Notes under the pieces: generated by a model
Databases searched by the model: none
What the model saw: only the letters and a program-made list of their open reading frames with translations
What the model was told of the DNA's origin: nothing
Shown here: in pieces, positions 10,060 to 57,568 of the stretch
Layout: the number at the start of each line of letters is the position of its first letter
How positions within the stretch are numbered: the stretch's first letter is position 1
Assembly (NCBI GenBank): GCA_948144175.1
Contig: CANXME010000548.1
Span: 1-64,000, forward strand
Length of the DNA: 64,000 nt
Reading direction: 5' to 3'
DNA from: Closterium sp. NIES-65
Lineage: Eukaryota; Streptophyta; Zygnematophyceae; Desmidiales; Closteriaceae
Position numbers and translations under genes: made by a program

Positions 10060-13000
10060 TCAATAATAGGCAGAGGAGAGTGATTGCTTGCGGCGAGGCT
10101 TATCCGGCCCTCCTCCCTGTTGCTGCCGCATCATGGCTGCAAACTCCTCATAGTCAATCGTGCCACTCTGTTACCACACAAGGGGAAGGAGGACGGAGCA
10201 AAAAAGGAGAATCAAGATGAATAATTTGGAATACGGTATTCTTATATCACTGATTCTTTTCTGCATCCACAGTTGGAAGGTAAGAGAGAGCAGAGAAGAG
10301 ACAAGTGCCTGGCTCCAGGATGCCGTCAACACCACACCACCACGTTCAGCCACCCCACAGTACAATTCATGCGACCCCCACCGCCCTCTCCTCTCCTTCT
10401 CCTCTCCCCCTCCTCTCCCTCTCGACGCACCTTGTCCGTGTCCACTAGATCGATAATCTGCTCGATGTCCCCCGGCTTCAGCGTGGCCTCATCACCCCAC
10501 AAGCACACTTTTGATCACTATGTACTGCCACCCACCCAGGTGTAAAAAGAGTAGTTTTGAGACGTCTCAAAACTTCTCTTTTTACACGTAGCACACTTTT
10601 GATCGCTATGTTCTGCCACCCACCCAGCATGTCACCCACCCAGCATGTCACCAACCCAGCATGTCACCCACCCAGCATGTCACCCACCCAGCATGTCACC
10701 CACCCAGCATGTCACCCACCCAGCATGTCACCCACCCAGCATGCCATCCCCCACTTTCCCCTTCCTGACTTGCCTTCTCTTCATCCTTTTGCTCAATCAT
10801 CTGCACGATATCCCCCGGCTCCAGCCAGCATGCCCTCAAACACCACACACCATCCATTTCGAGTCACTACATACCCCTGCCTCACATGTCATTCTCTCTC
10901 CCCCAATCCACCCTCTCTGACGCACCTTGTCCATGCCCACTTGCTCAATGATCTGCCCAATATCCCCCGGCTCAAGCATGCCACACAACACATCACATTC
11001 GAGTCACGACATACCCCTACTTCACATGTCATCCCCTCTCCTTCCCAGCATCAGCGCACCTTATCCGTGTCCACTTGTTCGATGATCTGCTCGATATCCC
11101 CCGGCTCCAGCATGCCCTCATCACTACACCATCACAGTCGAGTCACCACGCACGTACGCAACCCTGTCACTGCCTATGCCATCCCTCCCCTTTCCCCCAA
11201 ACCCACCTTATCCGTGTCCACTTGCTCGATAATCTGCTCGAGATCCCCTGGCTCCAGCATGCCCTCAAACACGACACCATCACATCACATTCAAGTGCCG
11301 TATCCTCTTCCTCTGACGCATCTTATCCGTGTCCACTTGCTCAATAATCTGCTCAATATCCCCCGGCTCCAGCATGCCCTCATCACCACCTTCAATAACC
11401 CACCCCACAGTACTACCACCACTCCTGCCATCCCCAACCCTGTCCCTCCCTCATCAGCACACCTTGTCCGTGTCCACTTGCTCAATGATCTGCTCGATAT
11501 CCCCCGGCTCCAGCATGCCCTCATCCTCCAGCGCCTCCCGCAACTCGCTCACCGTGATGATGCTGTGAGGGTGGGGAGGGGGAGTGTGGAGTGGAGGGAA
11601 GAGTGGGAACGGCAGGTTAGGAGCGTGAGAGGAGAGAGAGAGCAGCGGTGGGAACGAGGCTCCAGCAGGCCCTCATCCTCCAGCGCCTCCCTCGGCTCGC
11701 TCACAGTGATGGTGCTGCCAGGGGAATGGGCGATGGGGGAAGGAGGTTGGAGGGGTTGGGGTGGGCGGGGAAAGGGGTGGAATGGAGGGAATGAGACAGG
11801 GATGAGTTGCAGCTCCAGCATGCCCTCATCTTGCTGTTCTGTCACAAGTACCAGACAGCCAGGAACTAGATGCGGTCTGATCTTGCCTCATCCCCATCCC
11901 ATCTCATAATTTCTCACCCGCTGCTGTCCTTGCCTCACCCGCTGCTGCCCCTTCTCATCCGCTGCCGTCCCTTCTTTCAACCCCCCTGCCACCTCATGCC
12001 GTCTCTTCTCTCCCACCATCCTTTTCTCAGCGTCCTTGTCAAAATGCCTGAACGCAGCCAGGATGTGCTCCTCCTTCTCAACGCTGCTCATCTCACTGCC
12101 CTGCTGGCTCAACTCGTACCATCCAGCTACTGTCTCTCATTTCACCCCCTGCCATCCCAACACGTCTCACTCCCTCCCATGCCATCTCGTCTCACCCGCT
12201 GCCGTCCTTGTCGAAGTGCTTGAAGGCGGCCAGGATGTGCTCCTCCTTCTCCACGCTGTTCATCTGCATCGTTGCCGTGATGAACTCCGTGTAGTCGATC
12301 GTGCCGCTGTTGTCCACGTCCGCCTGGGATAAGGGATAAGGAGAAGGAGGAAACGGGGGGACACGGACAGGCTGTGATGAACTCCGTGTAGTCGATCGTG
12401 CCACTGTTGTCCACGTCGGCCTGCATCCAGAGGGGTGGGAGAGGGGCAAGGAGGGGTTTGGAGTGGTGAGAGAGGGTGTGATGGGATGAACTCCGTGTAG
12501 TCGAACGTGCCGCTGTTGTCCACGTCCGCCTGGGATAAGGGAGAGAGGGAGTGGGGGAGGCGAGGTGGGGAAAGGGGGACAGAGGGAGACAGGGGGACAG
12601 GGACGGGCTGTGATGAACTCCGTGTAGTCAATGGTGCCGCTGTAATCCACGTCCGCCTGGCAATACAGGGAAGGAGAGGGAGGTTGGCGGCAGGGGAAGG
12701 AGAAAACGGGGGGACAGGGACGGGCTGTGATAAACTCCGTGTAGTCAATGGTGCCGCTGTAGTCCACGTCCGCCTGGGTGGGCAGCAGGGAGGGGAGGAC
12801 GAGAAGGAGGGGACAGGGGGAAGTGGGAGAGAGGGACCAGGGAAGTGGGGAAGAGGGGAAGTGGGGAAGAGGGGACGAGAAATGCGGGGACGAGGGATAG
12901 AGGGATTAGGTTACATGCCACCCATTTCGTCGTATGACATTTATCTCGAGACGTCTCATCATGACTCAAAACGCCTCTACTCAAAACTTGATAATTACAG

Positions 13001-55500: not shown

Positions 55501-57568
55501 ATCCGTTGTTCCCCCTTTCCTCCCCCTTTCCTCCTCCTTCAGCTCTTATTCCCCCCCCTTTCCTCTCCTATACCTCCCCCCACCTCCACAGTCTGATCCC
55601 GGCACCTGGAGAGACGGATGCAGCTCTTGCAGAGAGGGCTGCGAGGCATCCTCTGTTCATGACGCATGGGGAAGGTGCGGTGCAGGGGGGGGAGAGGGGA
55701 AAGGTGGCATTAGCTTTCTAAGTCAACTGAATTACAGCTGTTACAGAAAGGGCTGCGAGGCATTCGCTGTTCATGACGCATGGGAAAGGTACGGTGCGGG
55801 AGCGGAGGGTGGCATGTGTTATGGGGACACTATTTAATCGATTCAAGATAACAGTTGCTGCGGAGAGGGCTCCGAAGCATCTGCTGCTCATGATGCATGG
55901 GAAAGGTATTCTGTGGAGCGGAGGGGAGGGGAGGGGAGAGGAGGGTGGCATGTGATATAGGAGCATCCATTCCAAGCCGTTACCTGAGTAAGAGGGACGG
56001 ACGGGTGGCTGGAAAAAATCCCTTCTCTGTGTACTACTAGCTTCTGTGCCACCTCTCGCCTCTTGGCTGGGGCAAGGACTACGAGATGCCTTTTGCATTG
56101 ACTGTTGACTCACAAGGCGACTTCAGAGTGGACCAAGAAGTCATCTCGTTGACTTCTTTCGTGTGCTGACGTGTGGAGTTGACCCCCTAGTGGGCTACAG
56201 CTGGGGCAACACGCCTCGGGCAATGGCTGCTCTGACCTGCTGCGCACTGCTGGCTTCTTGAGGCGCCTTTTGTGCTTGTGCAGGTGCAGTTGACCCGCTG
56301 CTGGGCTGCGCCTGGGGCATGGACTGCGCTGGCCTGAGGCACTGTGAGGCACCGTGAGGCATAGTGCATTCACGGTGCCTCAGGGCTGCGCCTGGGGCAC
56401 GGACTGCGCTGGCCTGCTGGCTTCTTGAGGCGCCTTGTGTGCTGTTAACACGAGATGGAGAGGCTTGAGTTGAATGCCATGTTTGCTGTTTCTCCCTTCC
56501 CTCGTGGATTTCTTGCATGTGTGTGTGCGTGCGCTGTTGACCCCCTGGTGGGCTACAGCTGGGGCAGGGACTGCGAGATGACCTTTGAGTGGACCAAAAA
56601 GTCATCTTGTTGACTTCTTACGTGCGCGTGTGCGTGTTCGTGTGCAGTTGACCCGCTGGTGGGCTATGCCTGGGGCAGGGAGGGACTGCAAGGTGCCTTT
56701 TGGGTGGACCAGAAAGTCATCTCGTTGACTTCTTTCGTGTGCTTGTGTGTGCAGTTGACCTTCTCGTGGGCTTCGCCTGGGGCAGGAACTGCTCTGACCT
56801 GCTGCGCAATGCTGGCTTCTCCAACCTCACCTTCCAGTCGTATCCCCTGTAAGACTCTGTTACTGCGGATGAAACGTTTGGTTTAGGGGATGATAGTTGA
56901 GTCAAGCCAGGCGCCATACCTTCCTAGCCTGCGTTAGTGTGCAATACACCACACCACATATGGTGTTACTGGTTTAGGGGATGAAGGTGGGTGATGGTGT
57001 AGTCGACTCAGGCACCATACCCAGTGAAGCTTCTCCAACCTCACCTTCATATCCCGAGTGAAAATGCGTTATTGTTGATGCCTTGTGGAAACATGGCATC
57101 TGAGGGATATGGGTATATCTCTTATCTGGGATATCCGTGGTTTCGTGTATTTTCTTGTCGTTCCATGTTTCTCTTTTTGTTCTACTGGCGTGACGTTTTC
57201 TCTACCCACAATATATCAGAAATATATCTCATGCCTTTTTTAGTCGACACAAGAACGGTTATCCCACCCACCACCCACAAACTTCTCTTTCAGAGCCTCC
57301 CGATAATACTTTCTTAGATTTCCCTTTTTAAACTACGGCCTGGCGCACGCCATGTGCAGTGAGGAGCTGGCGGGTTTGTCCGATTGGACCCCAGTTGCAG
57401 TATGTCTAGTTTTGAGTCGACTCAAAACACAACAGCAGATACAATATGTCTCAAAAACACTTCTTGGTGCCTTCCCCTTTGCCCTACAGCCTGGCACACG
57501 CCATGTGCGGTGAGGAGCTGGCGGATATGAGAGCGTGGCTGCTGCAGCACGCCCCTCTTCCCGCTTGA
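52547..57568 (+). CDS. Acyl-protein thioesterase / carboxylesterase, paralogue 2
   Basis: Eight exons: 52547-52817, 53126-53298, 54071-54140, 54552-54662, 55029-55185, 55592-55674, 56755-56848, 57490-57568; 345 residues. It has TVVWLHGLGDSGNGISNW, IVGGISQGGSLSLYLM (nucleophile Ser), FMTHGEVDLLVGFAWG (Asp in VDLLV) and LLAHAMCGEELADMRAW (His). Exon sizes 70, 111, 157, 94 and 79 are identical to those of paralogue 1, so the pair arose by gene duplication. The residue after the catalytic Asp differs (VDLLVGFA versus ADSLVPFA), as does the Gly before His (LLAHAM versus RGMAHS), so substrate preference or activity may have changed. The N-terminus (MSLRNALPKRFGNLIRRMFG) is basic and amphipathic-looking, then an Ala/Glu-rich run. 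Confidence 0.88.
53930..54420 (+). repeat. Copies of thioesterase-2 exon 3
   Basis: An acceptor-side copy (GTGGCAGGTCAAGTGGATAT) is at 53955-54000, before the true exon at 54071. Downstream, ~54140-54400, donor-type units (GTGAGT..CTCA[C/T]GTGCCCTT) repeat about seven times. Confidence 0.85.
55345..55500 (+). repeat. Duplicated exon-5 donor segments flanking a palindrome
   Basis: The text CCAAGTGCAGGTGGAAGGAA occurs at ~55361 and ~55456. Between them lies the palindrome at 55426-55447 (core TTTTTGAGACGTCTCAAAAA). Further exon-5 donor copies lie at ~55220-55290. Confidence 0.95.
55735..55915 (+). repeat. Two donor-side copies of thioesterase-2 exon 6
   Basis: Copies at ~55735-55790 and ~55855-55908 repeat CAGAGAGGGCT[G/C]CGA[G/A]GCAT...ATGCATGGGAAAG with GT donors. 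Confidence 0.9.
56170..56754 (+). repeat. About five acceptor-side copies of thioesterase-2 exon 7
   Basis: Copies of GTTGACC..CT[G/C]GTGGGCT and following text occur near 56180, 56285, 56385, 56535 and 56648 before the true exon at 56755. Between them lie decayed palindromes such as TTTGAGTGGACCAAAAAGTC (56583-56602). Confidence 0.9.
57330..57428 (+). repeat. Acceptor-side copy of thioesterase-2 exon 8 followed by a palindrome
   Basis: The copy (GCCTGGCGCACGCCATGTGC, ~57339) precedes the palindrome GTTTTGAGTCGACTCAAAAC (57409-57428); the true exon begins at 57490. Confidence 0.95.

Follow-up and report, generated by a model that had tools for sequence, protein, structure and literature searches.

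The first 64 kb of contig C548 of assembly G000 (874,075,685 bases in 2400 contigs) of the freshwater green alga Closterium sp. NIES-65, hereafter the window, carries a family of short palindromes of the form TTTTGAG-NN|NN-CTCAAAA, which typically lie between two direct copies of the neighboring sequence. In the copies examined, these palindromes fall into subfamilies, have arms trimmed to different extents, age together with their duplicated flanks and, in a few copies, show covarying stems. The palindromes may represent short nuclear hairpin elements that are captured at staggered breaks, where fill-in of the overhangs duplicates the flanks and one arm is re-copied from the other; we assign this reading a probability of roughly 0.45.

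The exact palindrome, TTTTGAGNCGNCTCAAAA, has eight copies in the window and 24,964 in the whole 874-Mb assembly, against 0 copies of a reversed control and approximately 0.1 copies expected genome-wide from base composition (by hand arithmetic). A scan of the window with up to 3 mismatches identified 19 matches, where 0.25 were expected from shuffled sequences and the shuffle maximum was 2, and all eight perfect palindromes of at least 20 bp in the window belong to the TTTTGAG...CTCAAAA family. The original prediction had listed twelve intact or near-intact sites, held to be far too many for chance, and had proposed a genome-wide count. Both the excess and the count bear it out and the list itself largely stands, with eight exact sites (10555, 33901, 37582, 39826, 40510, 40585, 55428 and 57410, where 55428 had been placed at 55427), two sites with one mismatch (30446 and 30831) and one with two mismatches (14536); only the site at 49016 (TTTGAGACGTCTCTTATC) falls beyond 3 mismatches. 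Density is uneven, with eight copies in the 64-kb window and 27, counting those in arrays, over 150 kb of C6, and 52 kb from 20 other contigs held 0 exact copies and one copy with two arm mismatches, where approximately 1.5 were expected at the genome average. Since some loci are counted twice, as one window locus recurs in a second, nearly identical contig (C1894), the haploid copy number may be lower than 24,964. Matches in viruses (11 stretches) and prokaryotes (at least 120 stretches), with one palindrome each among the matches listed, were taken as chance. A covariance-model search returned 154 matches, both strands counted, mainly at known sites, and is the basis of no count reported here.

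Sequence beyond the window comprised 200 kb chosen for listed sites and eight short stretches that surround such sites, for a total of 264 kb plus the eight stretches. This sample contained 52 testable, distinct intact sites; array copies with the same 8-nt neighbors on both sides and sites near an end were dropped. A direct duplication with one copy on each side of the palindrome, both no more than 35 bp from it, was found at 48 of the 52 intact sites, by comparison with 79 of 400 random positions. In a stricter, ungapped test, 41 of the 52 sites were positive, whereas the rate was 29 of 300 for random positions and 3 of 67 for palindromes of at least 12 bp outside the family; by this last comparison, duplication is tied to the TTTTGAG family and not to palindromes generally. 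The predicted coupling of palindrome and duplication is thus supported, and most of the intact copies examined do have duplicated flanks, the opposite having been named as an outcome that would speak against it. A comparison of flanks that was not anchored to the palindrome found similar stretches of at least 19 bp at 11 of the 12 sites listed earlier, the exception being 14539. However, these 11 sites scored 19-45, while among 1000 random positions a quarter reached 18 and a tenth reached 46, and this test is weak alone because the genome is rich in local duplications. The expectation of a repeated flank on each side of nearly every listed site therefore holds at 11 of 12 sites by a weak test, fails at 14539, and needs qualification at 39826 and 57410, where the copies lie 20-55 bp off. 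Across the 45 sites accepted by the parsing script (the 45 parsed sites), the duplicated flank, B, was 13-137 bp long with a median of 37 bp, several of the longest values coming from arrays, and the borders of the duplications showed no clear motif. Microhomology of a few bases was seen by eye at some joints, e.g., GTC|ACCTC at 37582.

Palindromes and flanks decay together. The median identity of the flank copies was 0.952 for palindromes without mismatch and 0.933, 0.895, 0.862 and 0.756 for the successive mismatch classes, and the sites with a duplication numbered 48/52, 15/23, 6/14, 7/20 and 7/19 in these same classes. Decay and flank identity were correlated (Spearman -0.37, p = 0.0005, n = 83, with some decayed copies belonging to one array and hence non-independent); random positions that passed the duplication test had a flank identity of 0.795. 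As the flank copies diverge while the palindrome decays, the palindrome and both flank copies probably arose in a single event. Decayed examples in the window are found at 14379, 22668, 33215 and 51146.

Self-complementary, adapter-like 18-mers beside repeated sequence have the classic look of an assembly, adapter or library artefact, but this origin is extremely improbable here, given that the flank copies differ by substitutions and age with the palindrome, that subfamilies differ in their outer arms, and that two copies sit in frame inside a long open frame. Moreover, partner contig C1894 carries all six of the palindromes that were compared (30447, 30831, 33901, 37582, 39826 and 49016), including a full TTTTGAG at 30447 where the window lacks one T, and 40510 and 40585 fall in an almost identical match to C1894. 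The comparison excludes 10555, where the C1894 piece is too short, as well as 55428 and 57410, where the fetched allele departs past 54217; the two contigs align at 98.7% over 49337-54217 and then part (C1894 near 1025535) near carboxylesterase-like exon copies. The presence of these palindromes in both alleles speaks against an artefact and also against very recent insertion at those sites.

Analysis of the cores and arms revealed a family with internal structure. In the first 264 kb, TCGA cores were found 23 times, ACGT 14 times, GCGC 11 times, AATT twice (outside the window) and CCGG 0 times; the core was self-complementary at 50 of the 53 sites whose arms are exact (4-base cores of any sequence), the exceptions being TTGA, AATC and ACAT. 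Core and outer arms go together, as subfamilies. The original prediction had described cores that vary between constant arms, and several cores do occur, including AATT as a fourth, but they follow the outer arms of their subfamilies and do not vary freely; the associated argument, that differing cores exclude copying by descent, is consequently not supported. TCGA copies have the arms AGGTGAC/GTCACCT or variants of them, e.g., GTTGAC, of which trimming has left 0-8 nt on each side. The full TCGA unit is a 32-bp palindrome (C9 local 12257), and at window position 37574 the palindrome extends to 34 bp, with its outer bases being part of B. For the ACGT subfamily, a longer unit, (AGCC)ACGTG-N12-TTTTGAGACGTCTCAAAA-N12'-CACGT, is possible, with 12 nt between boxes in most copies that keep a box (C6:141725 has 14 nt, and in C6:141619 the left box lies directly against the core). 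A perfect palindrome of 52 bp is found at L160:287-338. One arm is missing in C6:43844 and in C10 local 28176.

In five chosen ACGT copies with both arms, the 12-nt stems pair within the copy at 11, 12, 11, 11 and 10 positions, whereas left stems from different copies agree at only 3-8 of 12 positions; in this small, hand-picked sample, stem sequence drifts and pairing is kept. Across seven hand-picked copies and 26 pairs, covariation was 0.368, compared to a shuffled mean of 0.129 (reached in 0 of 500 shuffles) and 0.074-0.177 for slid partners, and 86.8% of cells were paired, compared to 74.1% after shuffling (0 of 500). Four more ACGT copies with a missing or replaced arm, which pair at 0, 5, 2 and 3 of 12 positions, were left out. 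Two readings of the covariation are possible, namely selection for a hairpin or a process in which each insertion copies one arm anew from the other, and the latter also explains the perfect zero-loop center. As 10-base pieces of the seven stems recur only 0-6 times in the fetched sequence (the script disregards recurrences within 60 bp of an element), nearby sequence does not look like the source of the stems.

Covarying stems would also fit selection for an RNA hairpin, and an RNA-mediated origin can be envisaged in which the reverse transcriptase of a retrotransposon uses a short hairpin RNA as template at widely spaced nicks, yielding long target duplications. Frames that resemble retroelements by eye are present in the window, and the loss of one arm in C6:43844 and C10 local 28176 is compatible with such a route. 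We nevertheless consider it improbable, since a perfect zero-loop palindrome would be awkward as an RNA hairpin or template and only a tRNA reached Rfam gathering scores in the window. Furthermore, the constant 3' end or poly(A) and the nick motif that characterize target-primed retrotransposition by long and short interspersed elements were not seen at the 45 parsed sites, where both ends vary.

Under the preferred reading, the element would be a perfect zero-loop palindrome of approximately 18-60 bp, built around TTTTGAG-NN|NN-CTCAAAA, that enters where a break leaves long ends staggered by 13 to 137 nt. Both overhangs would be filled in and joined by end joining, giving B-[element]-B, with nucleases trimming the hairpin at one or both ends before joining, so that the hairpin becomes a linker. 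Fold-back copying of the first arm would produce the second, so that both arms would share any mutation arising in one of them and new copies would stay perfectly palindromic while their stems drift. What we infer from the copies at hand is that the element is mobile, that the break is staggered, that its overhangs are filled in and that an arm is regenerated by fold-back. Arms trimmed to 0-8 nt in the TCGA subfamily and borders without a clear motif are expected of capture at breaks and not of a site-specific transposase. It is tentatively suggested, with slightly less assurance than for the capture mechanism as such, that the palindromes constitute a new class of nuclear mobile DNA, i.e., non-coding hairpins of 18-60 bp that are captured at breaks, re-made by fold-back copying and duplicate 13-137 bp of target.

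The same facts are covered by template switching during replication or break repair, which involves no mobile element and differs from capture mainly in the source of the hairpin. Here, a nascent strand would jump to an arm of an existing palindrome, fold back at the self-complementary core, copy the arm outward and rejoin its own template 13-137 nt upstream, leaving B duplicated. A single step would thus give the duplication, a trimmed or variable second arm and re-copied stems, and it would account for junctions with two palindromes (C6:85821/85850), for a half-element repeat (C9 local 19018) and for borders without a clear motif. What it leaves unexplained is the recurrence, approximately 25,000 times, of a few subfamilies with conserved boxes (TTTTGAG, ACGTG and TGAC), and if these boxes are preferred templates, the palindromes are mobile in effect; we regard this alternative as rather unlikely, although it is the strongest of those considered. 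The original prediction had offered either a mobile palindrome or a repair process, and each half retains something, the element through the subfamilies with conserved boxes and the repair process through trimmed arms, variable lengths and the missing border motif.

An insert of two palindromic tips that lies between direct repeats and has conserved, box-like arms could also be the excision footprint of a larger DNA transposon, in which two terminal inverted repeat tips remain between target duplications in the style of P elements. Such a footprint is very unlikely, because the center is constant (50 of 53 cores are self-complementary) where end joining should vary, because duplications of 13-137 bp are unlike the fixed stagger of a transposase, and because no longer element with these ends was seen in 264 kb. 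In this sequence, 391 pairs of exact TTTTGAG...CTCAAAA ends lie 60-8000 bp apart and 21 of them have duplicated flanks, of which 19 connect palindromes that neighbor each other within a locus, whereas the other two span 5 kb and have threshold-level scores. Half-sites in opposite orientation form 443 pairs with 21 matches, 16 within arrays and five being 6-kb pairs at the threshold. As the flank-duplicated pairs are neighboring palindromes or lie at threshold level, no longer parent is apparent.

Several observations weigh against capture of a mobile hairpin. An anchored duplication is missing at 4 of the 52 intact sites, or at 11 of them by the strict test; B begins with A at a fraction of 0.56 of the 45 parsed sites, which may reflect overlap with the A run of the palindrome; and GCGC copies lack long arms, their palindrome being only 18-24 bp. 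The covariation is based on few, chosen copies, and weaker measures separate less clearly from shuffles (both-side changes 10 versus 6.6, reached in 19/500; further pair types 18 versus 14.2, reached in 25/500). Trimming at two arms cannot distinguish capture of a fragment from template switching. In addition, no insert-free allele was seen between the window and the C1894 pieces, nor an empty site or a new insertion; empty paralogs inside the 264 kb yielded no clean case, and protein searches for empty sites, made with the long minus-strand frame in which three palindromes lie, gave no homologue at E ≤ 0.001. Neither an empty site nor a donor molecule was seen, and no donor or enzyme is known, no enzyme search having been made; the mechanism is accordingly unproven.

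Double-hairpin elements are short, hairpin-forming, dispersed and apparently selfish organelle repeats, and these and the GC clusters of fungal and algal organelles resemble the Closterium palindromes in being very short, hairpin-forming, dispersed and apparently selfish. The Closterium palindromes share with GC clusters the short hairpin repeat with structure-keeping changes (in the seven chosen copies) but do not lie in organelles; they are nuclear, have no loop, are associated with 13-137 bp duplications and number about 25,000 exact copies. Merged copies of GC clusters, as well as yeast clusters flanked by short AG or ACT repeats, are described in PMC4478555. In the green alga Volvox carteri, short palindromes occur in organelle and nuclear DNA, and the pertinent section of PMC2670323 judges the nuclear copies, many of them degenerate, to be inert transfers from organelles. 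By comparison, many of the copies in Closterium are perfect and linked to duplications of local sequence.

Miniature inverted-repeat transposable elements (MITEs) are short and non-coding, with inverted repeats and flanking direct repeats, but are usually 100-600 bp long, with a short target duplication of fixed length and ends in common with a parent transposon. Inverted repeats between direct repeats (48 of 52 intact sites) are a trait that the Closterium palindromes share with MITEs and DNA transposons, whereas their duplications are not of fixed length (13-137 bp) and no longer related element was seen in 264 kb. REPINs and REP sequences and the Rickettsia palindromic elements are short mobile palindromes of bacteria, the Rickettsia elements being found in frame within genes; to our knowledge, these do not have long target duplications. 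In mammalian cells, fill-in of complementary 3' overhangs by CST/Pol alpha-primase followed by end joining produces short direct duplications, according to the abstract of PMC8355091. Tandem duplication at staggered breaks shares with the Closterium sites a short local duplication without site preference, but the junction in Closterium is a recurring, conserved hairpin family and not empty or unrelated filler, and the abstract of PMC8355091 contains no conserved palindromic insert. Among the papers listed in searches of the open-access literature (titles and abstract starts), including Closterium combined with palindrom-, none deals with these elements. Genome size among Closterium strains differs more than twofold via copy-number variation, as stated in PMC10407611, the main text of which has no word starting with palindrom-. 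None of the families tested matches the Closterium palindromes. The position of nearly every intact palindrome examined, between two copies of its target, points to a hairpin element or a repair process of a kind not yet described, one that reshapes genes.

If the capture reading is correct, these palindromes would be among the smallest possible mobile elements, present in thousands of copies in a eukaryotic nucleus with a target duplication of no fixed length, and the staggered breaks of an alga related to land plants could be read directly and counted from them. They would also generate short duplications throughout the genome, within genes and at the edges of exons, from which new exon edges, tandem repeats in proteins and perhaps introns could arise. 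With the palindromes as markers, one process that forms duplications can be tested by simply comparing strains.

Among the individual sites in the window, the ACGT element at 10540-10589, GTGTAAAAAGAGTAG-TTTTGAGACGTCTCAAAA-CTTCTCTTTTTACACGT, has long stems that pair at 11 of 12 positions, and its left flank copy (10502-10539, plus strand, 38 bp) is 95% identical to the right copy at 10590-10627. The insert at 10540-10591 reads GT...AG between the flank copies (CAG|GTGTAAAAAG...CACGTAG|CAC) and, judging by these letters, could be usable as a new intron. A second ACGT element, AGCCACGTG-N12-TTTTGAGACGTCTCAAAA, lies at 55407-55451, with its right arm trimmed and 51-bp copies at 55356-55406 and 55452-55502 (96% identity). 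TCGA elements include AGGTGAC-TTTTGAGTCGACTCAAAA-GTC at 33894-33921, with copies of 31 and 30 bp at 33863-33893 and 33922-33951, and GAGGTGAC-TTTTGAGTCGACTCAAAA-GTC at 37574-37602, with 37-bp copies at 37537-37573 and 37603-37639. The TCGA-core palindrome at 30831-30844 is trimmed on the right side and has 51-bp copies at 30780-30830 and 30845-30895 (98%), and that at 57410-57427 has a 41-bp duplication 37 and 55 bp away and none adjacent. The ACGT-core palindrome at 30446-30463, which lacks one T, has a diverged flank duplication of approximately 84 bp (80%), and the one at 39826-39843 lies in a repeat-rich part of a long minus-strand frame, with similar, non-adjacent stretches 20 and 39 bp off. 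The more degenerate sites comprise a decayed palindrome (TTTTGAGAGGCCTGAAAA) at 14379-14396 with old, diverged flank copies (79%), the near-palindrome with two mismatches at 14536-14553, in the earlier list, for which no flank duplication was found, a decayed palindrome at 22668-22685 with copies of approximately 100 bp (83%), a half-decayed ACGT palindrome (TTTGAGACGTCTC) at 49016-49028 with diverged, similar flanks, also found in allele C1894, and a decayed GCGC palindrome at 51146-51163 with copies of approximately 100 bp (77%).

Two palindromes are located inside a 509-residue minus-strand open frame, where both inserts preserve the frame. The GCGC-core palindrome at 40510-40528 has identical 36-bp copies at 40475-40510 and 40529-40564, one base overlapping the palindrome (period 54), and the TCGA element GTTGAC-TTTTGAGTCGACTCAAAA at 40579-40602 has identical 21-bp copies at 40558-40578 and 40603-40623 (period 45); the peptides read through the inserts are FEAPQK (40510) and FESTQK (40585). 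This frame had no Pfam match, and its neighbor, the minus-strand frame 35978-37435, matches mTERF. Periods were divisible by three at 19 of the 45 parsed sites, and at 33 of the 45 no frame was open over the whole insert and 90 bp on either side. Overall, open frames of the window matched the mTERF, RCC1, protein kinase and phospholipase/carboxylesterase families (Pfam; five of the ten frames submitted were without a match). The best protein match of a magnesium-dependent phosphatase frame at 25822-26538 was to Closterium sp. NIES-54 (93% identity), followed by Closterium sp. NIES-68 (81%). The window is taken to be Closterium nuclear DNA, and in the 874-Mb, 2400-contig assembly the examined palindrome copies sit amid plant-type protein genes and not in organelle DNA.

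Outside the window, arrays of five units, each consisting of palindrome plus B, were seen at C6:107990-108155, C6:131439-131668 and C10:378134-378319, with periods of 37, 53 and 42. Another tandem array, at C6:136185-136465 (L149), has a 24-bp unit, TTTTGAGGCGCCTAAAAAATCACC, built from a GCGC palindrome with one mismatch. At C6:104111-104300 (L146), three copies of an approximately 42-bp stretch are split by two palindromes, first of the GCGC and then of the ACGT subfamily, which is a case of repeated insertion at one place. Nine local duplications of 50-77 bp in the window (11207, 12277, 12592, 13012, 20826, 27638, 55137, 55621 and 56566) have spacers of 28-59 bp with no recognized palindrome, some being on exon edges by eye; these may have arisen by the same process and then decayed, or may stem from a different one. 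On the minus strand at 58429-63694, open frames resemble retroelements of the Copia type by eye; frame 60378-61760, the only one of this set submitted to Pfam, had no match there. A minisatellite with a 21-bp unit (GGCATGGCACCATGAGTACGT) was read by eye at 744-1100.

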